Source: Rhizobiaceae bacterium
GTDB taxonomy: Bacteria > Pseudomonadota > Alphaproteobacteria > Rhizobiales > Rhizobiaceae
Assembly: GCA_014238155.1 (NCBI GenBank)
Contig: JABABQ010000062.1
Span: 248,001 to 312,000, forward strand
Length of the DNA stretch: 64,000 nucleotides
Reading direction: 5' to 3'
Shown: positions 38,146-58,909 of the stretch, in pieces
Layout: each line of letters opens with the position of its first letter
How positions within the stretch are numbered: position 1 is the stretch's first letter
Program-made: the position numbers and the translations under genes
The notes under the pieces: generated by a model
The model's input: only the letters and a program-made list of their open reading frames with translations
What the model was told of the DNA's origin: nothing
Databases searched by the model: none

Positions 38146-38412
38146 ACCCGTTCTTCCTCTCAATATTTTGACTATCACCAATTTCCCGGACGGCCAAAGA
38201 ATGTTCCATCGGTGATTAAAGGGGTGATTAAAGGAAAGCGTTGCGAGCCTGTCCTTGACGCAGATCAACTGCCCAAAGCCCGCGATCAAACCGGTTTTTT
38301 TTACCTTCATGCGCCGCCATCAGCGGCACAAATTCGTGCGGTTATTCCACTGTACCCGGCAATGCGCTAGACTGACAGGTGCCGCGACAGCCACAACAGC
38401 TGGAGAAACACG

Positions 38413-43956: not shown

Positions 43957-44355
43957 ATGCTGTTGGAATCCCAAAAATTGGAAGATTTGGTGCGCGATTA
44001 TTTTCGCGGCGTTGATGGTGAAGATCTCGAAGGAATTTTTCAGACACTGGACGATGATTGCATCTTTACTGTCGAGACCCATCAAATTCATCTTCAAGGT
44101 CGAGACCAGATATCGGCGATGTTTCAGCGCCTGTGGGACAATCACAAATCTGTGCGCCACGACCATTTCATATTTGTCACCGATCCAGACACCAGCCGGA
44201 TTGCAGTTCAGTTTCGCGTCACCAACACGCTCGAAGATGGCCAACAGGTGTTCAAGTCAAACAGCAATTTCTTTGAAGTGGAGCGCGGCAAGTTTCGTCG
44301 GGTCAATGTGTACATGGCCGGCGAAAATACGCTCAGTCTGCCGGACTCAATCTGA
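43957..44355 (+). CDS. NTF2-like/SnoaL-fold protein
   Basis: 132 residues. The helix-then-strand opening LEDLVRDYFRGVDGEDLEGIFQTLDDDCIFTVETHQIHLQGRDQISAMFQRLW is the NTF2/SnoaL cone fold pattern; such proteins are isomerases, hydrolases or ligand binders. The start at ATG 43957 is uncertain because the GGAG sits immediately before it; a TTG at 43942 would be better spaced. It overlaps the convergent NTF2-like gene by 9 bases. Confidence 0.7.
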   Translation: MLLESQKLEDLVRDYFRGVDGEDLEGIFQTLDDDCIFTVETHQIHLQGRDQISAMFQRLWDNHKSVRHDHFIFVTDPDTSRIAVQFRVTNTLEDGQQVFKSNSNFFEVERGKFRRVNVYMAGENTLSLPDSI

Positions 44356-44781
44356 GCGTAGCACCTCACCCAAATCGTTCCAGACCTGTTGGTCCTGCAA
44401 CTTGTTATCGCGCACCGTGAACCGGTCGATGAAGCGAATGCCCCTGAAATCTGAGCCGTCCAGTAACTTGCCCTGCAAGGTACCAAAACAATAGACAATC
44501 GCATCCGTGCCACTGTGGGCCTCGTCAAACCGATCGTAGGATTTTCCAATGGCGAGATAGCGCTGCCTGCCCCAAACAACCAGTTCCTCCAGTTCAGTAA
44601 AACGAGCGTCGCCGGGAAATGTCATCTCAAATTCCGGCGACAGATAGTTTCGCGCAGCATCCAGATCGCGCCGCTGCATGGCGTCAAGAAACGAACGAAC
44701 GATACCGCTAGCGGCCTGCTTTTGCAGACCAGTGTCGTCGGGTGAAGTCGGTTGATTTGTCGCGTGTTCTTGGTCGCTCAT
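44347..44781 (-). CDS. NTF2-like/SnoaL-fold protein
   Basis: 144 residues with the pattern IVRSFLDAMQRRDLDAARNYLSPEFEMTFPG followed by strand-rich sequence and a C-terminal DRFTVRDNKLQDQQVWND, typical of SnoaL-like proteins. It is divergent from the GntR regulator gene with a 67-base shared promoter region that holds a 15-base dyad, so it may belong to the regulon of the large catabolic operon. No catalytic residues can be assigned. Confidence 0.75.
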   Translation of the reverse strand: MSDQEHATNQPTSPDDTGLQKQAASGIVRSFLDAMQRRDLDAARNYLSPEFEMTFPGDARFTELEELVVWGRQRYLAIGKSYDRFDEAHSGTDAIVYCFGTLQGKLLDGSDFRGIRFIDRFTVRDNKLQDQQVWNDLGEVLRSD

Positions 44782-44805: not shown

Positions 44806-44834
44806 TTGACATTATCATAATGATATAACTTTAT
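44806..44834 (+). promoter_or_regulatory. Candidate promoter with palindromic GntR operator
   Basis: TTGACA (44806-44811) is followed by the dyad TTATCAT-A-ATGATAT (44812-44826) and, 17 bases after the -35, a weak CTTTAT -10. The dyad sits between -35 and -10 in the 67-base region between the divergent SnoaL-like and gntR genes. A repressor bound there would block the operon. Binding by the adjacent GntR protein is inference. Confidence 0.55.
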
Positions 44835-44848
44835 ACCAATTGAAGTAA

Positions 44849-45748
44849 GTGCAATCTGGGTGCTTTCACCGTGCCAATCAGCCGAGCGGACAGTTTAATT
44901 TGTCAGTAGCAGCAGCAAAAATTGGATCTCGAACTTTTTCCTTGGGACTGGTTGATGATCGGTCCCCGACACCGCTCTATCATCAGGTATATTTGATCTT
45001 GCGTGGTAAGATCCTGAAGGGCGAGTTCGCTTTTGACGTGCCGATGCCAAGTGAACAACAGACCGCGGAGATATTCGGCGTATCGCGGATCACCGCAAAA
45101 CGGGCACTCAATGATCTGGCTTCCGACGGATTGGTGAAGCGCGAACGAGGTCGCGGAACGCGGGTGATTTTTCGCGCACCGGTGCAGCCCTTGCGATCGA
45201 GTGTTGATGGCCTGCTGGAAAACCTGTTGCAGATGGGGTTGGAAACCGAGGTGCTGCTGAAGTCGTTCGGTTATGTCAGGCCGGATCGCGATGTGGCGCA
45301 GGCGCTGCAATGCGCAGATGATGATTTGGTTCAACATGCCATTCGGGTGCGCAGCCTTGATGGTGAACCATTTTCATATCTGGAAACTTATGTGCCGGAG
45401 CAGATAGGGCGCAGCTACAGTCGCGACGATTTGGCAACCCGGCCTTTGCTGGAATTGCTGGAGCGTTCCGGCGTTGTTATTTCCCGGGCGGAGCAAACCA
45501 TCAATGCAACACTTGCCAATATTGAGGTGGCCAATGCTCTGGTGCTCGATCTGGCGGCGCCATTGTTGAGCATTCAGCGCACAGTTTACGATCAAAACGA
45601 CAAACCGGTTGAATTTATCCGGGCGCTCTACCGTCCGGACCGATACCAATATCGCATGATGCTTTCACGTGTCGGCGATGAAATGTCGCGGTCCTGGTCT
45701 CCGACCAGCGATCAATCAGAATCCAAACAATCAACACAGGGAGAGTAA
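44849..45748 (+). CDS. GntR family (HutC/UTRA type) transcriptional regulator
   Basis: Up to 299 residues. The winged helix-turn-helix covers residues ~37-108 (PLYHQVYLILRGKILKGEF...PSEQQTAEIFGVSRITAKRALNDLASDGLVKRERGRGTRV). The C-terminal UTRA ligand-binding domain follows (LDGEPFSYLETYVPE, then the final VEFIRALYRPDRYQYRM). The marked start is a GTG; a TTG at 44942 just before the family core is an alternative. It stops 1 base before the Liv-type receptor gene, so the regulator is the first gene of the operon it presumably controls. Confidence 0.88.
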   Translation: MQSGCFHRANQPSGQFNLSVAAAKIGSRTFSLGLVDDRSPTPLYHQVYLILRGKILKGEFAFDVPMPSEQQTAEIFGVSRITAKRALNDLASDGLVKRERGRGTRVIFRAPVQPLRSSVDGLLENLLQMGLETEVLLKSFGYVRPDRDVAQALQCADDDLVQHAIRVRSLDGEPFSYLETYVPEQIGRSYSRDDLATRPLLELLERSGVVISRAEQTINATLANIEVANALVLDLAAPLLSIQRTVYDQNDKPVEFIRALYRPDRYQYRMMLSRVGDEMSRSWSPTSDQSESKQSTQGE

Positions 45749-45749
45749 G

Positions 45750-46982
45750 ATGAAAAAATTCATGTCAAACGGGTCGCGCCGCGACTTTATCAAGAAAGCA
45801 GGTGCCACCACCGCGCTTGCAGCAAGTGGTGCGTTGAGTACGCCCTTTTTTGCCCGTGCAGCATCGCCGGTAAAAATCGGTATCGTTCACCCGGTTACCG
45901 GCTGGGCGCAATATTCCGGCAGTCAGGCACGCTTTGGTGCGCAGACTGCACTGGATGAAGTCAATGCCGCAGGTGGTATCAAGTCAATGGGTGGCGCGAT
46001 GCTGGAAGCCATGCTCGGCGATGCCCAGTCAAAGCCAGAAGTTGGCGCTGCCGAGGTGGAAAAATTCAACGAAGCTGGCGCATCCGCAATTGTTGGTGCG
46101 TATGCTTCCAATATCTGCCTGGCGACTACCCAGGCAGCAGCAAAGCACGGAATTCCACATGTCGTGGACGTGGGCGTGAGCGATAAAATCGTTTCCCGCG
46201 GATTGGAAAACACCTTCCGCTTTGGCCCTGGATTTGGGGCAATTACAAAAGCTGGTGTTGAAAACTTTCTGGCCATCAACAAGGCGGCAGGCAGCCCGAC
46301 AAAAACCGTTGCAATTGTTAACGAAGAAACCACCGGATTTGGCGCCGGCATTGCCGGCATCATGACCAAGGGTCTGGCACCGGCTGGTATTGAAGTTGTT
46401 GAGGTTTTGTCGCACCCGACACCGAACAAGGATTTCCGGAATATTGCACTGAAATTGCGCGAAATCGATCCGGACGTTTTGATTCCATCTCATTACTACA
46501 ATGAAGGCGTGTTGTTCTTGCGTACCCTGCAGCGTCAGAAGGTTCAACCGAAGGCAATCTACTCTGTGTTGGGCGGAGCTTCCTCGCAGTTCCGGTTTGT
46601 CAGCGAATTCCCGGATGCAGCGCAGTATGTGATGGACTGTAACCACTGGTTTGATCCGAACAATCCGGAAGCACTTGCGCTTCAAGCCAAGACCAATGCG
46701 GCGGGCCTTCACTTCAACTACGAGGTATTTCTTGCCTACACCGCGATGGTGTTTACAGCCAAATGCATTGATTTTGCCGGGTCCGCAGATCGCGCCAAAA
46801 TCATGGAGGCAATGGCTGCCTGCACCTGGTCGGATTCAATTATGCCATATGGTGCGACCAAAATGGTCAACGGCCAGAACAGCGGTGCACGACCGCTCGT
46901 TACGCAGGTTGTCGGCAGTGATATCAAAGTGATTGCACCCAATGACTTTGCCGCTGCGAAAGCGGTATTTCCGCGCCCCTGA
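45750..46982 (+). CDS. Liv-type ABC transporter substrate-binding protein
   Basis: 410-residue periplasmic receptor of the branched-chain amino acid/amide/urea class. The N-terminus (SNGSRRDFIKKAGATTALAASGALSTPFFARA) is a Tat-type signal with SRRDF. The mature protein opens VKIGIVHPVTGWAQYSGSQARFGAQTALDEVNAAGGI, the standard Peripla_BP_6 start, and has AIVGAYASNICLATTQAAAKHGIPHV near residue 115. Directly after gntR. A hairpin follows its stop. In this operon the ligand is probably the compound degraded by the downstream enzymes rather than an amino acid. Confidence 0.9.
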   Translation: MKKFMSNGSRRDFIKKAGATTALAASGALSTPFFARAASPVKIGIVHPVTGWAQYSGSQARFGAQTALDEVNAAGGIKSMGGAMLEAMLGDAQSKPEVGAAEVEKFNEAGASAIVGAYASNICLATTQAAAKHGIPHVVDVGVSDKIVSRGLENTFRFGPGFGAITKAGVENFLAINKAAGSPTKTVAIVNEETTGFGAGIAGIMTKGLAPAGIEVVEVLSHPTPNKDFRNIALKLREIDPDVLIPSHYYNEGVLFLRTLQRQKVQPKAIYSVLGGASSQFRFVSEFPDAAQYVMDCNHWFDPNNPEALALQAKTNAAGLHFNYEVFLAYTAMVFTAKCIDFAGSADRAKIMEAMAACTWSDSIMPYGATKMVNGQNSGARPLVTQVVGSDIKVIAPNDFAAAKAVFPRP

Positions 46983-47003
46983 TCTGCGCTTCGACCAATC
47001 ACT

Positions 47004-47030
47004 GACCCGGCGGCATATCGCCGGGTCTTT
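47004..47030 (+). other. Intra-operon hairpin after the receptor gene
   Basis: GACCCGGCG (47004-47012) pairs with CGCCGGGTC (47019-47027) around a 6-base loop and is followed by TTTT. It sits 21 bases after the receptor stop and 43 bases before the permease start. It could be a partial terminator or 3' stabiliser giving receptor excess over the membrane parts. Confidence 0.7.
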
Positions 47031-47072
47031 TCACGAATTTAGATTTTTGACGGTTCAGCCGGACAAGGTGTA

Positions 47073-47975
47073 ATGGATTTTTTGGGGTTCTCCCTGCCGA
47101 GCTATGGTTGGTCAACCGTACTTGGCTCGGCAATCAGCGGTGTTTTTTTGGGATCGATCTACGCTCTGGTGGCGTTGGGTCTGACTCTGATTTATGGCGT
47201 TTTGCACATTATCAATTTCGCCCATGGCGCTTTGCTGATGCTGGCCATGTATGCGGTTTATTTTCTCTGGTCAGGGTTTGGAATTGATCCATATCTGGCG
47301 ATGCTGATCGTTGTACCGGGTGGGTTTTTCTTCGGCTATGGATTGCAACGGCTGGTGATTGGTAAAGCCAGTCACGGCAAAGACGAAATCATTCTTCTGG
47401 TCACGCTGGGGATAGCGATCGTTATTGAAAACCTGTCGCTGTTCCTGTTTTCCGCTACCGAGCGTTCCGTTCTTGTGCCTTATGATCTCGACGGTATCGA
47501 TCTCGGCGTGACCTATGCGGTCTATCCGGAACTGGCCGCACTTGGTGGTTCGTTCCTCATAACTCTGGCGCTGTGGATTTTCATGACCCATACGGATACG
47601 GGAAAGGCTATACGCGCTGTCGCCAAAGAACGGCAGGGGGCTCGGTTGATGGGCATCAATGTCGATCACATATTTGCTGTCACATTTGGCATCGGTGTGG
47701 CCTGCGTTGCGGCAGCGGCCAGTCTTCTGGTTCCCACCTATGCCGTGCATCCGCAGGTTGGCAGCCTGTTTGTGCTGATCGCCTTTACTGTCGTCGTGCT
47801 GGGTGGAATGGGAAGTTTTGTCGGCGCTTTGGTGGGCGGGTTCCTGATCGGTGTGACCGAGCAGCTTGGACGGCTTTATCTGGGCGAAAGCCTGGGGGTC
47901 ATCACCATATCTGTCATCTTCATTCTGGTTTTGCTGTTCAGGCCAACCGGCCTGTTTGGCGCGAAGTCAGGTTAG
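47073..47975 (+). CDS. Liv-type ABC transporter permease (LivH family)
   Basis: 300-residue inner-membrane permease with about eight hydrophobic segments. The N-terminal GVFLGSIYALVALGLTLIYGVLHIINFAHGALLMLAMYA is the LivH signature, and GGMGSFVGALVGGFLIGVTEQLG is near the C-terminus. The LivM-type gene starts 3 bases after its stop. Confidence 0.94.
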   Translation: MDFLGFSLPSYGWSTVLGSAISGVFLGSIYALVALGLTLIYGVLHIINFAHGALLMLAMYAVYFLWSGFGIDPYLAMLIVVPGGFFFGYGLQRLVIGKASHGKDEIILLVTLGIAIVIENLSLFLFSATERSVLVPYDLDGIDLGVTYAVYPELAALGGSFLITLALWIFMTHTDTGKAIRAVAKERQGARLMGINVDHIFAVTFGIGVACVAAAASLLVPTYAVHPQVGSLFVLIAFTVVVLGGMGSFVGALVGGFLIGVTEQLGRLYLGESLGVITISVIFILVLLFRPTGLFGAKSG

Positions 47976-47978
47976 GGC

Positions 47979-48995
47979 ATGAAGGATTTTTCGCAACTTG
48001 TCGGCTGGGTCCTGCTGCTCATAGCACTTGCCGTACTGCCGTTGTTCATCCATTCGGCCCGCTGGATCGATTTTCTCGAGATGACTTTGTTTGTCGCGGT
48101 ATTGGGGCAGGGGTGGAACATTCTGGCCGGCTATGGCGGGCAGTATTCGTTTGGGCATGCGTTGTTTTTCGGAACCGGTGCTTACATTCAAGCCATCCTT
48201 CAGGTGAAGTTTGGCATCAGCCCCTGGATCGCCATGTGGTGTGCCATATCGGGTTCGGTATTGGTGGCCGCATTGGTCGGTTACCTCAGCTTCAGATATG
48301 GATTACGTGGTTCCTATTTCGCTTTGATTACTCTGGCCTTTGCTGAAGCATTTCTGGTGTTGTCACGTTCGTTGAAATCGATCACTGAAGGCGGCAACGG
48401 CATTCAAATTGCGCTCAATCAGGATCCTCAGCAGGCGATTTCCAAGTTTCAATTCAATTTTGCCGGACCTTTTCTCAGCGAATATGGTTTCTACTACACG
48501 ATCTTCATTATTTTGATTGTGGCGTTCGGAATCACCGCCTGGGTGGAACGGTCACGCTTTGGCGCACAACTGGTGGCGGTGCGAGAAAACGAGGATGCGG
48601 CCAAAGCGCTGGGCATCAACGCTTTTCGGGTCAAAATGGGTGCCATCTGCCTGTCTGCAGGAATCACAGCGGCCTGTGGTGTCTACTATGTTCAGAAATT
48701 CCTGTTTATTGAGCCGGGCATCGCCTATGGGCCAGCTAAGTCCGTGGAGGCCCTGTTTGCACCGATAATCGGGGGACTTGGAACGCTGCTTGGGCCGTTG
48801 CTCGGATCACTCTTCATTCATGGTGTCGGGGAATTGACAAAAGCGACAATCGGTCAGGCATTGGGCGGGCGTCCAGGCGTTGATCTGATCCTGTTTGGCA
48901 CGATCCTTATTCTCGTTTTAGCATTTCTGCCGCGAGGATTGGTGGGGCTGTTGCAGTCCGGATGGGCGCGATTGACAGGCGGGCGGGATGCTTGA
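47979..48995 (+). CDS. Liv-type ABC transporter permease (LivM family)
   Basis: 338-residue second permease. It contains GQGWNILAGYGGQYSFGHALFFGTGAYIQAIL, AVRENEDAAKALGINAFRVKMGAICLSAGITAACG and GGLGTLLGPLLGSLF, the family's conserved blocks. It overlaps the LivG-type start by 8 bases. Confidence 0.94.
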   Translation: MKDFSQLVGWVLLLIALAVLPLFIHSARWIDFLEMTLFVAVLGQGWNILAGYGGQYSFGHALFFGTGAYIQAILQVKFGISPWIAMWCAISGSVLVAALVGYLSFRYGLRGSYFALITLAFAEAFLVLSRSLKSITEGGNGIQIALNQDPQQAISKFQFNFAGPFLSEYGFYYTIFIILIVAFGITAWVERSRFGAQLVAVRENEDAAKALGINAFRVKMGAICLSAGITAACGVYYVQKFLFIEPGIAYGPAKSVEALFAPIIGGLGTLLGPLLGSLFIHGVGELTKATIGQALGGRPGVDLILFGTILILVLAFLPRGLVGLLQSGWARLTGGRDA

Positions 48996-49734
48996 AGTAA
49001 CCGGTCTCAGCAAATCCTTCGGCGGCCTTAAGGCTGTAACCGGTGCACATTTATCTGTTTTGGAAGGTCAGATAGTTTCTCTGATTGGCCCAAACGGAGC
49101 TGGGAAAACAACCCTGTTTGCGTTGATTTCAGGTTTCCTGAAACCAGATGAAGGACAGACAAGCTTTCAGGATACGGATGTGACCGGCCGTCAGCCCCAC
49201 GAAATTTGTCAACTTGGTCTGGTGCGTACGTTTCAGGTTGTTCAGCCTTTTGCCAATCTTGATGTTCGCGAAAACATCGCAGTTGGTGCACATACCCGCA
49301 TCGCCAATCGTAAATTGGCACTGGCAAGGGCGGCTGATGTTGCCAAACTTGTGGGCATGGAAGACATGCTGGATCAGCCAGCGGGTGATCTGACAATCGC
49401 CGGACGCAAGCGACTGGAGCTGGCACGAGCATTGGCGACTGAACCAAAACTGCTGTTGCTGGACGAGGTTATGGCAGGACTCAATGCAACCGAAATTGCC
49501 GAGCTGGTGCAGGTGGTGCGGCGAGTTCGCGACAGCGGTGTTACGATTTTTCTGATTGAGCATGTGATGCAGGCTGTGATGAGCCTGTCAGACTACACCT
49601 ATGTGTTGAATCAGGGGGTGATGATCGCCAGCGGAGCGCCGAAAGACGTCACCAGTTCTCCGGAAGTCATTGAAGCCTATCTGGGCCACGGAGCCGCTGA
49701 ACGGGTGGCCAAAATGGAGGGCGCCAATGCTTGA
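48988..49734 (+). CDS. Liv-type ABC transporter ATPase (LivG family)
   Basis: 248 residues. Walker A is IGPNGAGKTT near residue 34; the LivG-type LVRTFQVVQPFANLDVRENIAVGA follows, and Walker B is LLLLDEVMAGLN. The usual signature LSxGQ region is altered: the sequence reads AGDLTIAGRKRLELARALA, as in LivG proteins where the motif is LSYGxxRxLE. Overlaps its neighbours by 8 bases on each side. Confidence 0.93.
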   Translation: MLEVTGLSKSFGGLKAVTGAHLSVLEGQIVSLIGPNGAGKTTLFALISGFLKPDEGQTSFQDTDVTGRQPHEICQLGLVRTFQVVQPFANLDVRENIAVGAHTRIANRKLALARAADVAKLVGMEDMLDQPAGDLTIAGRKRLELARALATEPKLLLLDEVMAGLNATEIAELVQVVRRVRDSGVTIFLIEHVMQAVMSLSDYTYVLNQGVMIASGAPKDVTSSPEVIEAYLGHGAAERVAKMEGANA

Positions 49735-50428
49735 GTTGAAAAACTTGCGTGCTGGTTATGGTCAGATGAAGGTGCTGCATGGCATCGATCTGACGATTGA
49801 GGAGGGCGAGATTGTTGCTCTGCTGGGCAGCAATGGTGCCGGTAAATCTACGCTCAACAATAATGTATCCGGCATCTTCCAACCTACCGCCGGGCAAATA
49901 TTTTTTGAAGGACAGGATATTACCGGTTTGCGACCGGAAAACGTTGTTGACCTTGGCATTGTTCAGGTGCCGGAAGGACGCCGCATATTTCCCAATATGT
50001 CGATCCGGGAGAATCTGGAACTGGGCAGTTATCGTCGCGGCAAACCGCGGCGCGCAGAAAACATTGAAAAAGTGGTCAAAGTGTTTCCGCGGCTGGAAGA
50101 GCGTATCGGCCAATTGGCGGGCACGCTCTCGGGAGGCGAACAGCAAATGCTCGCCATTGGACGGGCGATGATGAGCGAGCCACGCCTGTTGATTCTGGAC
50201 GAACCGTCCTTGGGACTGTCTCCGCTTCTGGTGGAGGAAATGTTCGCCCTGATCCAAAGTCTCAACAAGCAGGGGCTGGCGATTTTTCTGGTTGAACAGA
50301 ATGTCATGCAGTCGTTGGAGATCGCCGACCGTGCCTATGTAATGGAAAATGGTTCAATCGTTCTATCAGGAAAAGCTGCAGAGCTGATCGACGATCCTGA
50401 TCTGAAAAAATCGTATCTGGGATTGTAA
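49727..50428 (+). CDS. Liv-type ABC transporter ATPase (LivF family)
   Basis: 233 residues from ATG 49727, overlapping livG by 8 bases. Walker A is LGSNGAGKST; VPEGRRIFPNMSIRENLELG is the LivF hallmark, with signature LSGGEQQMLAIGRAMM and Walker B LILDEPSLGLSP. It completes a five-part importer. The next gene, the hydratase large subunit, starts 4 bases after its stop. Confidence 0.94.
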   Translation: MLELKNLRAGYGQMKVLHGIDLTIEEGEIVALLGSNGAGKSTLNNNVSGIFQPTAGQIFFEGQDITGLRPENVVDLGIVQVPEGRRIFPNMSIRENLELGSYRRGKPRRAENIEKVVKVFPRLEERIGQLAGTLSGGEQQMLAIGRAMMSEPRLLILDEPSLGLSPLLVEEMFALIQSLNKQGLAIFLVEQNVMQSLEIADRAYVMENGSIVLSGKAAELIDDPDLKKSYLGL

Positions 50429-50432
50429 TATT

Positions 50433-51710
50433 ATGGGATCAACACTGGCAGAAAAAATCATTGCGAAGGCTTCCGGCCGTGACAGCGCCAGCCCGGGAGA
50501 GTTTGTCACCTGTGCCGTCGATCTTGCCATGATGCATGACAGTGGCGGACCGAGGCGGGTCGAACCGATACTGAACCGACTGGGCGCAAAGGTCTGGGAC
50601 CCGGACAAAGTGGTCTTGATCACCGATCATTTTGTCCCGCCTGTCGATGCCATGTCGGCTGCAATTCTGGATATGACCCGTAAATGGGCCGATGCGAATG
50701 GCATTTCGAATTTCCATGATATGCAGGGCATCTGCCACGTGGTTCTGCCGGAGCGCGGCCATCTTTCACCGGGCATGTTCGTTGTTGGTGGTGACAGCCA
50801 TTCGCCGACTGGTGGAGCGTTTGGCAGTTTCATGTTTGGCGTCGGCGCAACCGATATGGCCGGAGTGCTGGTAACGGGTGAAACCTGGATAAAAACCCCT
50901 GCAACCATTCGTGTTGAAATCGACGGTGAACTCGGCTCAGGACTGTCAGCAAAGGACATTATCCTGCACCTGTGCGCCCGTATCGGCATGGGGGGTGGCG
51001 AATATCAGGTTATCGAATACAGCGGTGAGACAGTGACAGCGATGTCGATGACCGAACGCATGACATTGAGCAATATGGCCGCAGAACTGGGGGCACAGGC
51101 AGGATTGATCGCAGCCGATGCAAAAACAACCGCCTATATTGAGGCCGCTGGCGGCAATCCGGGTGACCCTGCCCAATGGCAGGGTGATGCGGATGCGACG
51201 TATCTTCGAACCCATAAGGTTGACGCCAGTGCGCTTTTGCCGCACGTGGCCGCGCCCCATTCACCGGCCAATTCAGCACCCATTGATGACCATTCAACAA
51301 TTGCCATTGATCAGGCCTATATCGGGGCCTGTACGGGGGCAAAACTGGAAGATCTGCAGATGGCCGCTGCTGTCCTGAAAGGACGGCAGGTCGCCAAAGG
51401 CACCCATCTGCTGATTGCTCCGGCCAGCACCCGCGTTACGGCGGCAGCAGCAGCCGACGGCACGCTGGCAAGTCTCACGGCAGCCGGCGCCATCCTGATG
51501 CCTTCTGGTTGCGGTGCATGTGCCGGATATGGCGCCGGTATTCTGGCGGAAGATGAAGTCTGTATTTCGTCAACAGCGCGCAATTTTCAGGGGCGTATGG
51601 GTGCGGTGTCCTCAAAGGTATATCTCGGCTCTCCTTATACCGTTGCTGCCAGCGCAGTGGCCGGGAAAATTATTGATCCACGAGAGTTCCTGCAGCGGGG
51701 TGCATCATGA
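50433..51710 (+). CDS. Aconitase-family hydratase, large subunit (LeuC/DmdA-like)
   Basis: 425-residue [4Fe-4S] (de)hydratase subunit. The cluster Cys are in IGACTGAKLEDLQ (about residue 294) and PSGCGACAGYGAG (about residues 354-357); active-site-type STARNFQGRMG follows. The substrate-side motif GGDSHSPTGGAFG is near residue 116. LeuC normally has GSCTNGR in the first Cys motif; the Asn is Gly here. No leuA or leuB is nearby, and the gene is embedded in a catabolic operon next to an isocitrate-lyase-type enzyme. A hydratase for a substituted maleate (as dimethylmaleate hydratase DmdAB in nicotinate fermentation) fits better than leucine synthesis. That is inference. Confidence 0.85.
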   Translation: MGSTLAEKIIAKASGRDSASPGEFVTCAVDLAMMHDSGGPRRVEPILNRLGAKVWDPDKVVLITDHFVPPVDAMSAAILDMTRKWADANGISNFHDMQGICHVVLPERGHLSPGMFVVGGDSHSPTGGAFGSFMFGVGATDMAGVLVTGETWIKTPATIRVEIDGELGSGLSAKDIILHLCARIGMGGGEYQVIEYSGETVTAMSMTERMTLSNMAAELGAQAGLIAADAKTTAYIEAAGGNPGDPAQWQGDADATYLRTHKVDASALLPHVAAPHSPANSAPIDDHSTIAIDQAYIGACTGAKLEDLQMAAAVLKGRQVAKGTHLLIAPASTRVTAAAAADGTLASLTAAGAILMPSGCGACAGYGAGILAEDEVCISSTARNFQGRMGAVSSKVYLGSPYTVAASAVAGKIIDPREFLQRGAS

Positions 51711-52210
51711 GCAAGTCTGGAAAAGCCTGGGTGTTCGGCGACAATATCGACACCGACGTTCTGGCCCCGGGCCTCTACATGAAAGGCCCGCTGAAAGTGC
51801 TGGCCGCCCATTGTCTGGAGGCCGTAGATCCAAATTTTGCGTCAAAGGTTGAGCAGGACGATGTGATTGTTGGGGGGGAGAATTTTGGCATTGGCTCATC
51901 GCGTGAGCAGGCGGTTCAGGCACTGCAATATTTGGGCGTGCAAACCTTGATTGCAAAAAGCTTTGCCGGAATCTTCTTTCGCAATGCGCTCAATTTTGGC
52001 GTTGTGGCGCTGGTCTGTGCTGAGGTCGACAAAATCACTCCCGGTGACCAGATATCCAGTGATCCGGAGCTGGGCACCATCACCAATCACACCACCAGTG
52101 AAACATATGCTTGTGATCCCTTGCCGGAACAACTTCTGGCCATGGTGATGGACGGAGGATTGGTGGATCATCTGGAGATCAGACTGGCCAACAAGGAGGT
52201 TGCGTCATGA
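51707..52210 (+). CDS. Aconitase-family hydratase, small (swivel) subunit (LeuD/DmdB-like)
   Basis: 167-residue swivel domain that completes the active site of the large subunit. It begins KAWVFGDNIDTDVLAPG and carries the conserved GGENFGIGSSREQAVQALQYLG near residues 57-78. The length fits the short archaeal-type LeuD/homoaconitase small subunits. It overlaps the large-subunit stop and the following lyase start by ATGA, so the three enzymes are translated together. Confidence 0.88.
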   Translation: MSKSGKAWVFGDNIDTDVLAPGLYMKGPLKVLAAHCLEAVDPNFASKVEQDDVIVGGENFGIGSSREQAVQALQYLGVQTLIAKSFAGIFFRNALNFGVVALVCAEVDKITPGDQISSDPELGTITNHTTSETYACDPLPEQLLAMVMDGGLVDHLEIRLANKEVAS

Positions 52211-53097
52211 CCCGTCATCCGACTCTCACCCAGCAATTGCAGGCGACGGATATCACCGTTGCGCCTGGAATATTTGATGCATTTGGCGCAACTTTGGTCG
52301 AACAGGCTGGCTTCCATTCCACCTACCTGTCGGGAGCGTCCATCGCCTATACACGATTTGGCAGGCCGGATATCGGGTTGGTCGGCATGTCGGAAGTTGC
52401 CGACACGCTGTCGATTATATCGGAACGCACCGACCTGCGCATTGTCGTGGACGCCGATACCGGTTTTGGCAATGCATTGAACGTGATGCGCACCGTGCGG
52501 GTGTTTGAAAGCAGTGGTGCCACCGGCATCCAGCTTGAAGACCAGACCCTGCCCAAGCGCTGCGGCCATCTGGCGGGTAAGACACTCGTCAGTGGCGCTG
52601 AGATGGTCGGGAAAATCAAGGCGGCATTGGACGCCAGGCAGAACAAAGAGACGCTGATTATTGCGCGAACAGATGGCATCGCCGTTGAAGGCTTTGATGC
52701 GGCACTGGACCGGGCGGAACGTTATGTTGAGGCCGGTGCCGATATGCTGTTTGTGGAAGCGCCGCAGTCGCTGGAGCAGATGCAGACAATCGTGCAGCGT
52801 TTCGGTGACCGGGTGCCGTTGATGGCGAACATGGTGGAGGGTGGAAAAACCCCACAAAAATCCGCCGACGAACTAAGCCAGCTGGGGTATTCACTGGTGA
52901 TATTTCCCGGTGGCATGGTCAGGGCCATTGCCAAAACCATGCAGTCTTACCTGTTCAGTTTGAAAACCCATGGAAGCAACATGCCGTTCAGGGATAATAT
53001 GCTGGATTTTAATGGATTGAACGGGGTGTTGGGGACCGGTGATATGCTGGCCAGCGGCGCCAAATATGATGCCAAGAATTTTGAGGATGAAGAATGA
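52207..53097 (+). CDS. Isocitrate lyase/PEP mutase superfamily C-C lyase
   Basis: 296 residues. The family start VAPGIFDAFGATLVEQAGFHSTYLSGASIAY is followed by the Mg-binding DADTGFGNALNVMRTV and the catalytic lyase motif PKRCGHLAGK (Cys near residue 119). The Cys separates true lyases (methylisocitrate, dimethylmalate lyase) from PEP mutases and hydrolases. Adjacent to an aconitase-type hydratase, it most likely splits the hydrated product into a 2-oxoacid such as pyruvate plus a carboxylate. Methylisocitrate lyase of the propionate pathway is the alternative, but no prpC or prpD is present. Confidence 0.87.
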   Translation: MTRHPTLTQQLQATDITVAPGIFDAFGATLVEQAGFHSTYLSGASIAYTRFGRPDIGLVGMSEVADTLSIISERTDLRIVVDADTGFGNALNVMRTVRVFESSGATGIQLEDQTLPKRCGHLAGKTLVSGAEMVGKIKAALDARQNKETLIIARTDGIAVEGFDAALDRAERYVEAGADMLFVEAPQSLEQMQTIVQRFGDRVPLMANMVEGGKTPQKSADELSQLGYSLVIFPGGMVRAIAKTMQSYLFSLKTHGSNMPFRDNMLDFNGLNGVLGTGDMLASGAKYDAKNFEDEE

Positions 53098-54824
53098 TTG
53101 ATCCAGTTACGCTGGCGGTTTTAAAAGGCCGTCTGGAGCAGATCGCCGATGAAATGGATGCGGTGTTGTTCAGAAGTGCATTCAATCCGATCATTGCTGA
53201 AGCACATGATGCATCGCATGGGCTGTATCATGCTGAATCCGGTGAAACCCTGGTTCAGGGAAAGTCCGGTTTGCCAATATTTGTTGGTGCCATGTCTTTT
53301 GCCGTGATGACGGTGATTGAGAAAGCCGGCCGCGATGGCGATCTTGTTGATGGTGATGTCTACATTTTCAACGATCCGTACGATGGGGGCACCCATCTGT
53401 CGGACTTCCGGCTGGTCCGACCGTTGTATCGTGATGGCAAAATATTCTGTTTCCTGGCATCGGTAGGCCACTGGCACGATGTCGGCGGCAACGTGCCCGG
53501 AAACTACAATCCGGTTGCCACGGAATGTTTTCAGGAAGGCATGTTGATCCCGCCGGTCAAATTGTTCCGGAGCGGCGAGTTGCAACAGGATGTAGTCGAT
53601 ATCCTGCAGGCCAATTCTCGACTGCCAGGAAGCCTTTATGGTGACCTGAATGGCCAGATCAATGCGCTGGAACTGGGCATCAGGCGGATGAATGACCTGC
53701 TGGATGAATATGGTGATGGTCTGGTTTCGCAGGCGTTGGGTGAGTTGCGCAACCGAGCAGCCAAATTGATGGCCGCCAATATCTCGGATCTACCGGACGG
53801 CACTTATAGTGCCGAAGATTTTCTCGACAATGACGGCATCAAGGATGAACCGCTGAAAATCGCGCTTGACCTGACCATCAGGGGCGATCAGATGGTGCTC
53901 GATTTCAGCCGCAGCTCTGATGCCTGCGCCGGGCCGGTTAACATTGCCCTGTCGACAGCCGTGGCGTCTGTCTATGTCGCTACCAAACATCTGTTTACGG
54001 AAGTGCCAGCCAATGCCGGGGTGCTGGAACCGATTGAAGTCATTATTCCTGAAACCTCGCTGCTTAATGTTCGGGCACCAAAACCGGTTGGCGGATATAC
54101 CGAAACCATATTGCGCATCATCGATGTGCTGTTCTGTGCCCTTGCCGACGTTGCACCGGAACGGGTCAATGGCTGTGCCTACGGCACGATCAATGCACTT
54201 TCTCTGGCCGGGCATCGCAAGAATGGCAGCCGCTGGGTGATGTTTTCTTTCTTTGGTGGTGGCCATGGCGGCCATCCCGAGGGGGACGGGCTTAATCACG
54301 GAAATGCGCCGATATCGACAGCAACGATTCCACCTGCGGAGATTCTTGAATCGGCCTATCCGGTGATGTTCACCCAATGGGCCTTGCGGCCCGATAGTGG
54401 AGGAGCCGGACGTCACCGCGGTGGACTTGGAGCCATTTACGAAATTGAATTGTTGGAAGAACAGGCCGATGTGTTTTTGTTTGGCGAGCGCGGAAAATAT
54501 CCACCGCCCGGTGTGGTCGGCGGCAAGCCGGCAGCCCTGAACCGATTCACCTATCAACAGGATGATGGCGATCATACGCCGCCGATGAAATCCAAGATGG
54601 TTGGCATCAAGTTGCGCAAGGGACAACGGGTTCATCTGGAAACCCCCGGTGGTGGAGGCTATGGCCCGCCAATGGAACGGCAGCCAGAGGCCGTGTGCCG
54701 GGACGTGTCATTGGGGTTTGTCAGTCGCGAACAGGCGCAGACCGAATATGGTGTCGTGCTGAATGAAACCGGCGTCGTTGACCAAGCCGAAACGGAAAAA
54801 TGCAGAAAGGCCGCCCAACAATGA
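53094..54824 (+). CDS. hyuB: Hydantoinase B/oxoprolinase-family subunit
   Basis: 576 residues. It shows the HyuB opening MIDPVTLAVLKGRLEQIADEMDAVLFRSAFNPIIAEAHDASHGLY, the metal-ligand region FNDPYDGGTHLSDF and GHWHDVGG, and the C-terminal GGGGYGPP. With HyuA it forms an ATP-dependent enzyme that opens lactam, imide or hydantoin rings (5-oxoprolinase, N-methylhydantoinase); relatives carboxylate ketones. ATGA overlaps link it to the lyase upstream and to hyuA downstream. The gene symbol denotes family only. Confidence 0.9.
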   Translation: MIDPVTLAVLKGRLEQIADEMDAVLFRSAFNPIIAEAHDASHGLYHAESGETLVQGKSGLPIFVGAMSFAVMTVIEKAGRDGDLVDGDVYIFNDPYDGGTHLSDFRLVRPLYRDGKIFCFLASVGHWHDVGGNVPGNYNPVATECFQEGMLIPPVKLFRSGELQQDVVDILQANSRLPGSLYGDLNGQINALELGIRRMNDLLDEYGDGLVSQALGELRNRAAKLMAANISDLPDGTYSAEDFLDNDGIKDEPLKIALDLTIRGDQMVLDFSRSSDACAGPVNIALSTAVASVYVATKHLFTEVPANAGVLEPIEVIIPETSLLNVRAPKPVGGYTETILRIIDVLFCALADVAPERVNGCAYGTINALSLAGHRKNGSRWVMFSFFGGGHGGHPEGDGLNHGNAPISTATIPPAEILESAYPVMFTQWALRPDSGGAGRHRGGLGAIYEIELLEEQADVFLFGERGKYPPPGVVGGKPAALNRFTYQQDDGDHTPPMKSKMVGIKLRKGQRVHLETPGGGGYGPPMERQPEAVCRDVSLGFVSREQAQTEYGVVLNETGVVDQAETEKCRKAAQQ

Positions 54825-56896
54825 GTTCTGAACCTTCGCGCTATATCATCGGCGTTGATGTGGGTGGCACATTCACTGACGTGTTTTTTCTCGACGAGGC
54901 TTCGGGTCACTGTGAAGTGGCAAAAGTACCTTCAACTCCCGCAGACCAGTCAAAGGGGTTTATTGAAGGCATCACACAAAAAGTAACTGGCTTTGCCGAA
55001 GTCGCCACCGTGGTGCACGGAACCACCGTTGGCACCAACGCGCTGCTGGAACGCAAGGGAGCAAAGACAGGCATCATCACCACCCGAGGATTTCGCGATG
55101 TGCTGGAGATGCGTCGCCGTGATCGCCCCAACACCTGGGGTTTGTGGGGACAATTTGAGCCGGTTGTGCCCCGCGATCGTCGGCTGGAGGTCGCCGAGCG
55201 TACCCTGGCAGACGGCACTATTCATACGCCGGTCAATCTTGACCAAGTGAAACGCGCGGCGCAGCAATTGCTGTCCAAAGGGGTTGAATCCGTCTGCATT
55301 GTTTTCATCAACGCCTATGCGAATTCTGAAAACGAGCAACAGGCTTTGCAGGCGCTGCGCGAAGTGTGGCCGAATGACTATATCGGTGCATCGACCGATA
55401 TACTTCCTGAGATCCGTGAGTTTGAACGCACGTCAACGACCACGCTCAATGCCTATTTGCAACCGGTTGTCGCCAGTTATCTGCACAAGTTGGAAAATGC
55501 TCTGGCCAGTGACGGGTTCGACGGTCAGGTGCTGATTGTACAGTCCAATGGTGGGGTCATGACGGTGGATACCGCACGGCAGTTGCCGGTTCGCACGGCC
55601 CTTTCCGGACCTGCCGCCGGAGTTATTGCCAGTGCCTATATCGGCGAACAGGCAGGATTTCCAAATGTCATCACCTGTGACATGGGCGGCACCAGTTTTG
55701 ATGTTTCACTTGTCGCCGATGCACAAAGCGCGCTTGCAGCTCAAACCAGTATCGATTTTGGCCTGACGGTGCGCGCACCGATGATCGAGATGACAACAAT
55801 TGGCGCCGGGGGAGGGTCCATCGCCTGGGTGGATCGGGGAGACCTGCTGCAGGTTGGTCCCGAAAGCGCCGGCTCCAATCCAGGGCCGGTCTGTTACGGA
55901 CTGGGCAATGAACGACCAACCGTTACCGACGCCAATGTTGTTTTGGGGCGTATCAATGCCGACAAGCCGATTGGTGGCAAGCTTGAACGACTGGATGTCG
56001 ATCACGCCAAGGCGGCCATTGAAAAGCATATTGCCACACCGCTTGGGCTTGATGTGATGTCGGCTGCAGAAGCAATTATCCGCGTTGCCAATTCCAAAAT
56101 GGCGGGGGCAATCCGTCTGGTTTCGATAGAACGGGGTTTTGATCCCAAAAATTTCTCGGCCATGCCTTTTGGCGGCGGCGGCGCCCTGCATACGGGGGCT
56201 CTGATCAAGGAAGTGGGACTGGAAAGTGCGCTGGTACCCCGCTATCCGGGCATCAACTCGGCGCTCGGCTGTACCATTGCTGACATGCGCCATGACTTCG
56301 TGCAGACGGTCAATGGCATTCTCGACAGCCTCGATCTGGACGGTTTGAACACTCAATTGTCGCAACTTGCTGCAGATGGACTGACGCTGTTGGACAAGGC
56401 GGGCGTGGCTTTTGAAAGCAGCGATGTACGGTTTGAACTGGATATGAGCTATCTCGGTCAGACCCATACTGTCGATGTTGCAATCCCTTCAGAATTCGAA
56501 AATGGTCGAACACAATTTGAAGTCAAAACCATCATGGAGGCCTTTGAAGTCCGCTATCGCGAAGTTTATGGACGACCGTTGGTCGGCATTCCCATTCGGG
56601 TTTTGAATCTGCGTGTATCGGCTATTGGACGGCGCCCCAAATTCGATCTGAAACTGCTGGCACCCGGCGATGATGTGTCTCCCGAACAGGCAAAGACCGG
56701 CACGCGAAAGGTGTGGTTTGATGGGGCGTTTCATGAAACTGCCATCTATCAGCGGCTGCCCTTGCCGGTCGGAACACAGATTGTCGGCCCGGCCATTCTT
56801 GAGCAACCCGATGCGACGATCTGCATTGAACCGGATTTAACCGGTGCAGTGGATCAGTTTGGCAATCTCGTGATTACCCGAAAACAACAGGCTTGA
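54821..56896 (+). CDS. hyuA: Hydantoinase A/oxoprolinase-family subunit (ATP-binding)
   Basis: 691 residues from ATG 54821, overlapping hyuB by ATGA. The actin/Hsp70-type ATP-binding fold shows phosphate-1 GVDVGGTFTDVFF at the N-terminus and phosphate-2 TCDMGGTSFDVSLVAD near residue 288, with HGTTVGTNALLERKG near residue 65 and GAGGGSIAWVD near residue 325. It activates the substrate carbonyl with ATP for the HyuB partner. The substrate is unknown. The isochorismatase-fold gene begins 3 bases after its stop. Confidence 0.91.
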   Translation: MSSEPSRYIIGVDVGGTFTDVFFLDEASGHCEVAKVPSTPADQSKGFIEGITQKVTGFAEVATVVHGTTVGTNALLERKGAKTGIITTRGFRDVLEMRRRDRPNTWGLWGQFEPVVPRDRRLEVAERTLADGTIHTPVNLDQVKRAAQQLLSKGVESVCIVFINAYANSENEQQALQALREVWPNDYIGASTDILPEIREFERTSTTTLNAYLQPVVASYLHKLENALASDGFDGQVLIVQSNGGVMTVDTARQLPVRTALSGPAAGVIASAYIGEQAGFPNVITCDMGGTSFDVSLVADAQSALAAQTSIDFGLTVRAPMIEMTTIGAGGGSIAWVDRGDLLQVGPESAGSNPGPVCYGLGNERPTVTDANVVLGRINADKPIGGKLERLDVDHAKAAIEKHIATPLGLDVMSAAEAIIRVANSKMAGAIRLVSIERGFDPKNFSAMPFGGGGALHTGALIKEVGLESALVPRYPGINSALGCTIADMRHDFVQTVNGILDSLDLDGLNTQLSQLAADGLTLLDKAGVAFESSDVRFELDMSYLGQTHTVDVAIPSEFENGRTQFEVKTIMEAFEVRYREVYGRPLVGIPIRVLNLRVSAIGRRPKFDLKLLAPGDDVSPEQAKTGTRKVWFDGAFHETAIYQRLPLPVGTQIVGPAILEQPDATICIEPDLTGAVDQFGNLVITRKQQA

Positions 56897-56899
56897 TAG

Positions 56900-57505
56900 A
56901 TGGCAGAGTTTGACCCGATATCGACGGCATTGATGCTGATCGACATGCAAAACGATTTCCTGCATCCCCAGGGAGCCTACGGACGTGCCGGGCAGAAAAG
57001 CGATGCAATTGCCGCGCTGCCCGACCGTCTTGTGGGCGTTGCCGAAGCCATCAGGGATGCCGGCGGCTGGATCGTTTCCACCCATTTTACTCTTGTCCCC
57101 GGCAAAGCTGGTAAGCCGTTTATATCGCCGCACCTGAAACAGCTGCGGCCGTTTTTGGGCCAGGGGGATTTTCAACCCGGTGCCTTTGGCCATCAGTTGA
57201 TCGACCCGCTCCAACCGGCAGATCTGACGGTGGAGAAGGTTGCCTTCTCAGCATTCTATCAAAGTCGGCTGGAATGGGTGCTGCAGCGGGCCGGAATCAA
57301 GACCCTGATTTTTGGCGGGATTGTCACCAATGGCGGTGTCGCCTCGACCGTGCGCGATGCCCATGTGCGGGATTTTCATTGCATCGTGATGGAAGATGGG
57401 TGTGCAGCGTTTAGCCAACAGGCGCATGACTCTTCAATTGACTCGTTGTCGACCATTGCCAAAATTGCCAGCTGCGATGCGATGATCGCCCAAATCAAGG
57501 ACTAA
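56900..57505 (+). CDS. Isochorismatase-fold hydrolase lacking the nucleophilic Cys
   Basis: 201 residues. Two of the three catalytic residues of cysteine hydrolases are present: Asp15 (LIDMQNDF) and Lys113 (VEKVAFSAF). The third motif, normally T-N-V-C-V, reads T143-N-G-G-V here, so Gly146 (codon 57335-57337, GGT) replaces the Cys. True isochorismatases also lack the Cys, while amidases of the fold (carbamoylsarcosine, maleamate, biuret hydrolases) need it. It may use water directly, as isochorismatase does, or have a non-amidase role. Three-base gaps on both sides place it within the HyuAB operon. Confidence 0.85.
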   Translation: MAEFDPISTALMLIDMQNDFLHPQGAYGRAGQKSDAIAALPDRLVGVAEAIRDAGGWIVSTHFTLVPGKAGKPFISPHLKQLRPFLGQGDFQPGAFGHQLIDPLQPADLTVEKVAFSAFYQSRLEWVLQRAGIKTLIFGGIVTNGGVASTVRDAHVRDFHCIVMEDGCAAFSQQAHDSSIDSLSTIAKIASCDAMIAQIKD

Positions 57506-57508
57506 CAC

Positions 57509-58909
57509 ATGTCAGTAGTTTCGGCTGAGGGAGTTACATTTGATGCCGGGATACCGTTGCTGATTGTCGGCGCCGGTGCCAGCGGTCTGGTGGCGGCTCT
57601 GGCGGCAAGGGATGCCGGTGTTGAATGTGTGGTGCTGGAGCGAGATCTGGTTCCCAGCGGCAGCACGGCGCTTTCATCGGGCATGATCCCGGCCTGCGAA
57701 ACCCGGATACAGCACGACAAAAGTGTCAGTGACAGCGTGCAGGTCATGGCCGCGGATATCTTCAAGAAAGCCCGTGGAGAAGCCGATCCATCGATGATTG
57801 ACGTGATGTGCCGTGCTTCCGGACCTGCAATTGACTGGCTCACGGCGACCCACGGTCTTGATCTGACTCTGGTGGAAGGCTTTCTCTATCCCGGCCACAG
57901 CCAGTTGCGTATGCATGCACCCCCCTCGCGATCGGGCGCGGATCTGATGGGCGGTCTGGTCAGGGCTGCTGAGAATGCAGGGGTAGATGTTCTGTGCGGC
58001 GCCCATGTTACCAAGATCTATGCCGACGACACTGCCCGGATCAAAGGGGTAAAAATTACCCGCCCCGACGCAACCACCGAATTGATTGGCTGCTCGGCGT
58101 TGATCCTGGCCTGCAACGGATTTGGCGGTAATCCTGATATGCTGCGCAAATATATTCCCGACATGCAGGATGCGTTGTATTTCGGTCATCCGGGCAATCA
58201 GGGGGACGCCATCAATTGGGGCCAGTCGCTGGGGGGAGCAACGCGGCATCTGGGCGCCTATCAGGGCCACGGATCTGTCGCTCACCCGCACGGCATCTTG
58301 ATCAGCTGGGCGCTGATGATGGAAGGTGGCATTCAGGTCAATTGTGATGGGGTTCGGTTTTCCAATGAGCTGGATGGCTATTCCGAACAGGCCCGTCGTG
58401 TACTGAGCCAAGCGGAGGGATTGGCCTGGAACCTGTTTGATGGCCGCCTGCGCGACCTTGTTGTCGGGTTTGAAGATTTCAAGCAGGCCGAGGCCAATGG
58501 TGCGGTGCTAAAAGCCAGTTCGATTGACGAACTGGGTGCAAAAATCAAGGTGCCGATTGCTGAATTGCGCGCCACCCTTGAGAAGATCAGGCACTTGATA
58601 ACTGCTCGCGAGAAAGACGAATTTGGCCGTGACTTCTCCGTCAACCCTACGCTGAAGCCACCTTTTTATGCAGTGAAAGTCACCGGTTCATTATTCCACA
58701 CTCAAGGAGGGTTGAAGGTAGATTCAAGCGCCAGAGTTTTGACTGCAAATGGCCAGTCCCTGCCCAACCTGTTCGCCAGCGGCGGTGCGGCATGCGGTGT
58801 CTCGGGGCCAGAGGATTGGGGTTATCTGTCGGGCAACGGTTTGTTGTCGGCAATTGCCCTGGGTCGAATTGCCGGTCAATCAGCAGCAAAGCTGGTTGGC
58901 GCGAATTGA
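57509..58909 (+). CDS. FAD-dependent oxidoreductase, fumarate reductase/succinate dehydrogenase flavoprotein-like
   Basis: 466 residues. The FAD motif LIVGAGASGLVAALAARDAG is near residue 17 and a second FAD contact is ALILACNGFGGNP near residue 195. The C-terminal TGSLFHTQGGLKVDSSARVLTANGQSLPNLFASGGAACGVSG...GYLSGNGLLSAIALGRIAG is typical of FAD_binding_2 enzymes such as fumarate reductases, tricarballylate dehydrogenase and ketosteroid dehydrogenases. It probably reduces or introduces a C=C bond next to a carbonyl. Last gene of the operon; the repeat region begins 35 bases after its stop. Confidence 0.88.
   Translation: MSVVSAEGVTFDAGIPLLIVGAGASGLVAALAARDAGVECVVLERDLVPSGSTALSSGMIPACETRIQHDKSVSDSVQVMAADIFKKARGEADPSMIDVMCRASGPAIDWLTATHGLDLTLVEGFLYPGHSQLRMHAPPSRSGADLMGGLVRAAENAGVDVLCGAHVTKIYADDTARIKGVKITRPDATTELIGCSALILACNGFGGNPDMLRKYIPDMQDALYFGHPGNQGDAINWGQSLGGATRHLGAYQGHGSVAHPHGILISWALMMEGGIQVNCDGVRFSNELDGYSEQARRVLSQAEGLAWNLFDGRLRDLVVGFEDFKQAEANGAVLKASSIDELGAKIKVPIAELRATLEKIRHLITAREKDEFGRDFSVNPTLKPPFYAVKVTGSLFHTQGGLKVDSSARVLTANGQSLPNLFASGGAACGVSGPEDWGYLSGNGLLSAIALGRIAGQSAAKLVGAN

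Follow-up and report, generated by a model that had tools for sequence, protein, structure and literature searches.

A widespread alphaproteobacterial operon combining a predicted ATP-dependent cyclic amidase, an aconitase-family hydratase, and an isochorismatase-fold protein without the catalytic cysteine

A 64,000-nucleotide stretch of the genome of a Rhizobiaceae bacterium (assembly GCA_014238155.1, contig JABABQ010000062.1, positions 248,001 to 312,000; hereafter the window) carries a 13-gene operon, located on the plus strand at positions 44849 to 58909, that encodes a GntR-family regulator, a five-part Liv-type importer, a LeuC/LeuD-like hydratase, a C-C lyase of the ICL family, the HyuB and HyuA subunits of a predicted ATP-dependent cyclic amidase, an isochorismatase-fold protein, referred to here as IsoC, and a flavoprotein. 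This is a real and widespread catabolic operon that consists of members of known enzyme families plus one unusual enzyme, IsoC, in which the position of the catalytic Cys is occupied by Gly. We lean towards the view that the operon, governed by its local GntR-family regulator, would serve for the import of a ring compound, its ATP-dependent opening, the adjustment of a double bond, hydration, and cleavage. The genes for its LeuC/LeuD- and ICL-like proteins are easily misnamed as those of leucine or methylcitrate enzymes.

The first-pass annotation of the window had reported 13 closely packed genes, and both their location and their packing hold: with the likely start codons, which were counted by eye (ATG 45750 for the substrate-binding protein, ATG 49727 for LivF, and ATG 54821 for HyuA), adjacent genes either overlap by 4 to 8 bases or are separated by 1 to 4 bases, the single larger gap being the 90 bases before the LivH gene. 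The limit set to the unit was too narrow, as two genes for SnoaL-like proteins and a candidate operator are found directly upstream. Pfam scans of the operon proteins recognized the GntR/UTRA, Peripla_BP_6, BPD_transp_2 (LivH), Aconitase, Aconitase_C, PEP_mutase/ICL, Hydantoinase_B, Hydantoinase_A, Isochorismatase, and FAD_binding_2 domains, and LivM, LivG, and LivF were assigned from their translations and from homologues encoded at the same place. When the lyase was searched for in 151 genomes of this family, its own genome among them, 28 genomes gave matches with E values of 1e-60 or lower, and the surroundings were compared for 18 of these matches. The complete 13-gene order is present in 8 of the 18 loci (L047, L049, L051, L052, L053, L055, L056, and L060), a recurrence that places the operon beyond chance; the remaining 10 loci are broken by contig ends, represent variants, or carry only part of the gene set.

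The distribution of the operon was further traced in a species-level genome collection that was scanned with the IsoC alignment and contained at least 585 stretches encoding a relative, the best 80 of which were analyzed. Many of these 80 loci come from metagenome bins, 57 have at least 9.8 kb of upstream DNA (full-flank loci), and there is some redundancy, as in L046 and L077, two contigs of 23,629 bases each whose gene scores are identical. According to their titles, the hosts of the best 80 loci belong to many alphaproteobacterial groups, including Rhodobacteraceae, Hoeflea, Nitratireductor, Stappia, Nisaea, Pelagibius, Kiloniellaceae, and a SAR116 cell; the titles also name one Granulosicoccaceae bin and one Competibacteraceae bin. 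The HyuB, HyuA, and IsoC genes directly follow one another on the same strand in 68 of the 80 loci (55 of the 57 full-flank ones), and, with the ICL-family gene, in 58 (51). The genes for LeuC, LeuD, ICL, HyuB, HyuA, and IsoC are consecutive on the same strand in 46 loci (41 full-flank ones), and the flavoprotein gene joins them in 35 (32). Gene-cluster counts given below as fractions of 110 loci refer to the sequences compared, window included.

The LeuC-like large subunit (50433..51710, plus strand) and the LeuD/DmdB-family small subunit (51707..52210, plus strand) are members of the aconitase family. The earlier claim that this LeuC is not the leucine-biosynthetic enzyme is borne out by its scores: it reaches 246 bits against the leuC model TIGR00170, whose cutoff is 560, and is 32% identical to LeuC from E. 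coli. In the genome-level leuC search, its match was broken into pieces scoring 157 and 90 bits, whereas two genes located elsewhere in the genome, C47 (813 bits; 65% identity to E. coli LeuC) and C15 (585 bits; 51%), exceed the cutoff. The presence of these two genes outside the window indicates that the leucine pathway may itself be duplicated. The LeuC-like protein falls in the homoaconitase/IPMI hacA subfamily, passing the cutoffs of PRK00402, hacA_fam, and IPMI_arch (537 versus 385 bits for PRK00402 and 473 versus 385.7 bits for TIGR01343), and its residues C300, C360, and C363, which we take to be the [4Fe-4S] cluster ligand positions of the aconitase family, are invariant in all 12 rows of the alignment. 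The LeuD-like protein scores 169 bits against TIGR02087 (cutoff, 109) and displays, in a 13-row alignment, an invariant YM pair in the loop and the GSSREQA motif. The use of this loop as a readout of substrate charge was considered and rejected: the residue after YM is Lys in 6 of the 13 rows and Gly, Ala, Arg, Asn, or Ser in the others, so that no charged residue is conserved. Nicotinate fermentation employs a hydratase-lyase pair, dimethylmaleate hydratase (DmdAB) and dimethylmalate lyase (Dml). The operon resembles that system in that its small subunit scores above the cutoff of the LeuD/DmdB subfamily model and that the gene for an ICL-family lyase adjoins the hydratase genes, but no further nicotinate-fermentation gene was recognized in the operon, and its named hosts are mostly alphaproteobacteria. 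The specific analogy to DmdAB and Dml is not established.

The lyase gene (52207..53097, plus strand; Pfam PEP_mutase) follows immediately. Its product contains KRCGH at residues 117 to 121, a motif that had been read as a pointer to dimethylmalate lyase; this argument was dropped because PrpB from E. coli carries KRCGH too. The best-scoring equivalog model for the lyase is prpB (TIGR02317), with 287 bits against a cutoff of 354 in its own genome; in 17 further genomes, the listed operon lyases also fall below this cutoff, and one of the 17 encodes a PrpB that exceeds it, away from its operon copy. In a tree of 111 rows, two of them from the window, all operon lyases fall into a single clade (support, 99/98). 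Its neighbors are E. coli PrpB and the above-cutoff PrpB, but this position is weakly supported (85/88); together with several long paralogue branches, this makes the placement outside the operon clade unsure. In a PDB sequence search, Dml (3fa3) scored 155 bits, below the PrpB entries (172 to 183 bits). The lyase is 40% identical to E. coli PrpB over 254 residues and shares with it the catalytic residues and KRCGH; when mapped with what we take to be the list of PrpB active-site positions, the catalytic residues of 86 operon lyases are those of PrpB, with the exceptions of S45T in 1, R122K in 3, and E188D in 1. Unlike PrpB, all 86 operon lyases have Ala instead of Gly47 and Gly instead of Leu237, in addition to forming a separate clade.

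HyuB (53094..54824, plus strand; Pfam Hydantoinase_B, 2.5e-169) and HyuA (54821..56896, plus strand; Pfam Hydantoinase_A; the longest frame starts at ATG 54800) would be the hydrolytic and the ATP-binding subunits, respectively, of an ATP-dependent cyclic amidase. The nearest relatives of HyuA with solved structures are N-methylhydantoinase (446 bits) and 6yra (381 bits), which is named 5-oxoprolinase and has the loop HKEDGHRYDATY quoted for the caprolactamase subunit CapA, followed by subunits of acetophenone and acetone carboxylases. The ATP motifs DxGGTxTD, DMGGT, and GxxPGP are all present in the HyuA of the window and are found in 95, 96, and 97 of the 98 HyuA frames, respectively; the equivalent of Asp302 of CapA is retained as well. 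HyuB contains NDPYDGGTHLSD and GHWHD (83 and 76 of the 90 frames, respectively). Its residues H101, D104, and H126 may, judged by spacing, correspond to H99, D102, and H124 among the four metal ligands (D41, H99, D102, and H124) given for CapB in PMC8453981 and PMC5214803. Caprolactamase is a proven ATP-dependent example of the group (PMC6061476), and PMC5214803 describes the hydrolases with only two subunits and no third-subunit gene, a description that the two-gene HyuAB arrangement fits. The window proteins thus share with N-methylhydantoinase, 5-oxoprolinase, and CapAB their families, the ATP motifs, and the His/Asp/His metal-site spacing, but they differ from CapAB in scoring far below the CapA and CapB equivalog cutoffs (556 of 1000 and 327 of 1000 bits). 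Together, these relatives, the motifs, and the two-gene arrangement point to a cyclic amide as the likeliest class of substrate.

IsoC (56900..57505, plus strand) is the unusual member of the set. Isochorismatase-like cysteine hydrolases have an Asp-Lys-Cys triad, which in TrtA consists of D24, K129, and C162, with the C162S variant being inactive (PMC7948467). When IsoC is aligned to TrtA (6xix), the Asp and the Lys are retained as D15 and K113, both of which are also kept in a 31-row alignment, and G146 occupies the position of the Cys. Gly is found at this position in all 105 frames that score at least 120 bits, the window included (TNGGV in 104 and TSGGV in 1), a count biased by the use of GIVTNGGVA as one of the two patterns in the collection scan; it is likewise invariant in the first alignment, of 20 IsoC proteins, for which the lyase and not IsoC had served to collect the loci. 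The predicted structure (mean pLDDT, 86.5) is most similar in fold to the hydrolases of biuret, triuret, and ureidoacrylate, and NicF ranks lower. IsoC thus shares its fold and the triad Asp and Lys with TrtA, BiuH, RutB, and NicF, but those cysteine hydrolases keep the Cys. A Gly at this position is also seen in EntB, the isochorismatase of E. coli, but the match between IsoC and EntB covers only 85 residues at 36% identity. Deamination by IsoC as an ordinary cysteine amidase, proposed in the first-pass annotation, had to be given up: because its catalytic Cys is replaced by Gly, IsoC is not a canonical amidase. It is a relative of amide and ureide hydrolases that lacks their nucleophile and probably does not carry out the reaction first assumed.

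The last gene (57509..58909, plus strand; Pfam FAD_binding_2, 9.3e-55) encodes a flavoprotein whose nearest sequence relatives are flavocytochrome c fumarate reductases, with urocanate reductase next. The Arg of the fumarate-reductase motif NRLGGN, presumably the binder of the substrate carboxylate in flavoproteins of this type, is not found there, the motif being replaced by GYLSGNG in the window. GY(L/M)SGNG is present in 68 of the 83 FAD frames, and the other 15 may be paralogues. The flavoprotein is inferred to be a desaturase or reductase.

At the other end of the operon, the GntR/UTRA-family regulator (44849..45748, plus strand; Pfam UTRA and GntR) is followed on the same strand by the genes for a Peripla_BP_6 substrate-binding protein with a Tat-type signal (45750..46982), the LivH-type (47073..47975) and LivM-type (47979..48995) permeases, and the LivG-type (48988..49734) and LivF-type (49727..50428; the longest frame starts at TTG 49670) ATPases. 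The nearest solved relatives of the substrate-binding protein did not settle its ligand. The two upstream genes for SnoaL-like proteins, arranged tail to tail, are recurrent neighbors of the operon. One of them (43942..44355, plus strand; Pfam SnoaL_2, 8.2e-10), starting at TTG 43942 or at the in-frame ATG 43957, belongs to cluster c4, which is found in 10 of the 110 loci. The other (44347..44781, minus strand; SnoaL_2, 3.8e-06), which is divergent from the GntR gene, belongs to cluster c0, found in 22 of the 110 loci and, in 15 of these, within 300 bases of a core gene. As judged by eye, a tautomerase stretch of the 4-OT type precedes the SnoaL part in 19 of the 22 c0 rows; the c0 frame of the window is without this domain and has a stop codon 10 residues upstream of its ATG.

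Between the two divergent genes lies the palindromic operator candidate TGATATAACTTTATACCA (44821..44838, plus strand). No exact match to TGRTATANNNNTATAYCA was found elsewhere in the 4.8-Mb assembly, and a degenerate form of the pattern gave one exact site, at the operon, and three one-mismatch sites, with none for the reversed control pattern. Among 10 other genomes that carry the operon or most of its genes, 5 have one exact site each, located at the operon by coordinates (in one case between the GntR and LeuC genes), and 5 have none. As the operator-like site has no second exact copy in the genome, the regulon is probably limited to this locus. Additional regulon members were sought through the operator search and rejected, the three one-mismatch sites lying, by eye, at no obvious pathway gene. 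Two further features of the window lie outside the operon. A gene for a 2OG-Fe(II) oxygenase (62463-63461; Pfam 2OG-FeII_Oxy and DIOX_N) is found shortly downstream and has cluster members in L058 and L106, and a 558-residue minus-strand frame (38320-39996), without a Pfam match, is overlapped by a plus-strand frame of similar length, so that either may be real.

Part of the first-pass interpretation stands: the catabolic operon is conserved, its HyuAB is of the hydrolase type, its hydratase is a non-leucine member of the aconitase family, and its ICL-family lyase falls below the PrpB cutoff in a clade of its own. The deamination by IsoC as a cysteine amidase falls away. The reactions, their order, and the substrate class, which we infer from the gene content and the family assignments, would be as follows. 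The Liv-type system would import a cyclic amide (a lactam, imide, or ureide), probably one with a carboxylate; HyuAB would phosphorylate the ring amide with ATP, and the ring would then be opened hydrolytically. The flavoprotein and the SnoaL-like proteins could adjust a C=C bond by desaturation or isomerization. IsoC might carry out an acid-base hydrolysis or isomerization that requires no Cys nucleophile, such as one that frees nitrogen from an enamine or from an amide of the self-assisting maleamate type. An aconitase-type hydration of the resulting substituted maleate or aconitate by LeuCD would then yield a substituted malate that the lyase could split into an alpha-keto acid and a carboxylic acid.

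Several observations weigh against a single fixed pathway of this kind. IsoC and flavoprotein genes occur without HyuA in the examined DNA of 3 of the 80 loci (L104, L117, and L151), L149 has IsoC without HyuAB, the lyase of L043 is accompanied only by GntR and a transporter, and in Tistrella, HyuBA-IsoC and ICL-FAD reside on separate plasmids. The parts of the operon are thus separable and may not all serve one substrate. An MmgE/PrpD gene, in some cases just 26 to 29% identical to the query, is found in 15 of the 57 full-flank loci, 8 of them with LeuC of the operon type and 7 without it, and because of these 7 loci LeuCD does not appear indispensable. The pattern TGGTATA-N4-TATACCA is found with at most 2 mismatches in 14 of 41 regions upstream of GntR genes and with 3 or more in the other 27; the mean number of mismatches, 3.7 versus 5.8 in shuffles, reflects a fit favored by the construction of the consensus from those very regions. 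Among the full-flank loci, 5 of 57 have a second, distant LeuCD and 8 of 57 have neither an operon-type LeuC nor PrpD. Other variants speak for the proposed reading. The Liv system is accompanied or replaced by a TRAP importer in L042, L069, and L072, by tripartite tricarboxylate genes in L043 and L045, and by a BPD_transp_1 ABC system in L083, and these types faintly hint at a carboxylate on the substrate. L141 and L149 have no ICL-type lyase in the examined DNA and encode a CaiB-type CoA-transferase, an HMG-CoA-lyase-like protein, a second-type LeuCD, and IsoC, as if a different C-C lyase took over the cleavage step; the Tistrella HyuBA-IsoC cluster also contains genes for an acyl-CoA dehydrogenase and a CoA-transferase. 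These variants suggest a common logic of desaturation, hydration, and cleavage, with or without CoA.

Maleimides of the hematinic acid type, hydantoins, and N-heterocyclic lactams are all possible substrates, among which the sequence gives no choice; the latter two are backed by gene context in a few loci. A pathway dedicated to the imide fragments that the tetrapyrroles chlorophyll, bilins, and heme leave behind (hematinic acid and maleimides that are alkylated or partly reduced) is a rather doubtful proposal. The flavoprotein would then desaturate succinimide-type rings, the tautomerase and SnoaL proteins would shift exocyclic double bonds, HyuAB would open the imide, the Cys-less IsoC would free ammonia from a self-activating dialkylmaleamate, LeuCD would hydrate the dialkylmaleate, and the lyase would split the product. 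Conversion of hematinic acid to its tri-acid would give a compound similar to methylaconitate but longer. PMC7318184 reports hematinic acid from leaves as a product of chlorophyll breakdown and cites both maleimides and hematinic acid as known from lake sediments and from leaves in senescence; the study itself detected no maleimides. If true, this pathway would parallel beta-oxidation in its steps of desaturation, hydration, and cleavage but would do without CoA. It is also unlikely, if conceivable, that HyuAB opens a 5-substituted hydantoin or a related ureide to an N-carbamoyl acid, which loses its carbamoyl nitrogen to other enzymes ahead of the hydration and cleavage of the carbon skeleton. 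N-methylhydantoinase is indeed the closest to HyuA, the nearest folds to IsoC are the biuret, triuret, and ureidoacrylate hydrolases, 11 of the 57 loci contain a gene of the Asp/Glu/hydantoin racemase family, and a carbon-nitrogen hydrolase cluster (one member scanned) is present in 3 of the 110. However, neither a racemase-family nor a C-N hydrolase gene was found among the operon genes of the window, and IsoC is devoid of the nucleophile that ureide hydrolases need, as illustrated by the inactive TrtA variant mentioned above. Genes for xanthine-dehydrogenase-type, hydroxyisourate-hydrolase, and OHCU-decarboxylase proteins beside the operon in L133 (1-2980) and L150 (3-2977) were considered as a link to purines and judged a chance occurrence in two close relatives; in L133, the latter two exceed their model cutoffs, and those of L150 were assigned by similarity.

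An N-heteroaromatic route, in which a Mo hydroxylase turns a pyridine-type ring into a lactam that a reductase may partly reduce, with HyuAB and IsoC replacing the enamidase step, seems improbable to a similar degree as the tetrapyrrole pathway. In Caldovatus sediminis (L144, 9983-12992), the large subunit of a Mo hydroxylase is encoded by an open frame that starts within the last bases of the IsoC gene, but this cluster is found in only 3 of the 110 loci. Mo hydroxylase genes near the operon in Paraburkholderia and, together with a gene annotated as 6-hydroxynicotinate reductase, in Sulfitobacter S190 (L072, 19709-26778) may sit on a separate island, and inspection by eye placed none of the three one-mismatch operator sites in the window genome at a Mo hydroxylase gene. 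Also present in this Sulfitobacter region are a UPF0280 gene and a pair of genes with the annotation amino acid synthesis family. That HyuAB is instead an ATP-dependent ketone carboxylase of the acetone or acetophenone carboxylase kind, with a ketone as the start of the pathway, is quite improbable: both belong to the same superfamily and the subunits are homologous, but HyuAB scores better to cyclic-amide hydrolases, comprises just two subunits with no gene for a third one nearby, in line with the description of hydrolases in PMC5214803, and keeps the Asp302 equivalent, a difference that the CapA paper calls not decisive. Least credible is the notion that a Hyu operon has picked up ordinary genes of leucine synthesis or the methylcitrate cycle. 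Automatic annotation does name such genes leuC and leuD, and prpB is the best model for the lyase, which lies beside PrpB in the tree, but the leuC and prpB scores, the leuC copies elsewhere in the genome, and the clade of operon lyases described above led us to reject both leucine synthesis and the methylcitrate cycle.

Judged by title and opening of the abstract, none of the papers listed from the literature searched, from which most subscription journals were absent, deals with this operon, and this does not show that the operon is undescribed, as the first-pass annotation had called it. With import, ring opening, hydration, and cleavage of a cyclic amide as the preferred reading, the operon represents a catabolic cassette that is conserved in many groups of alphaproteobacteria and yet unexplained. 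IsoC offers a testable case of a nucleophile-less isochorismatase-fold enzyme inside a pathway for a nitrogen compound, and the substrate would be a nitrogen-containing ring compound that occurs commonly enough for all those groups to retain an importer and a pathway dedicated to it.

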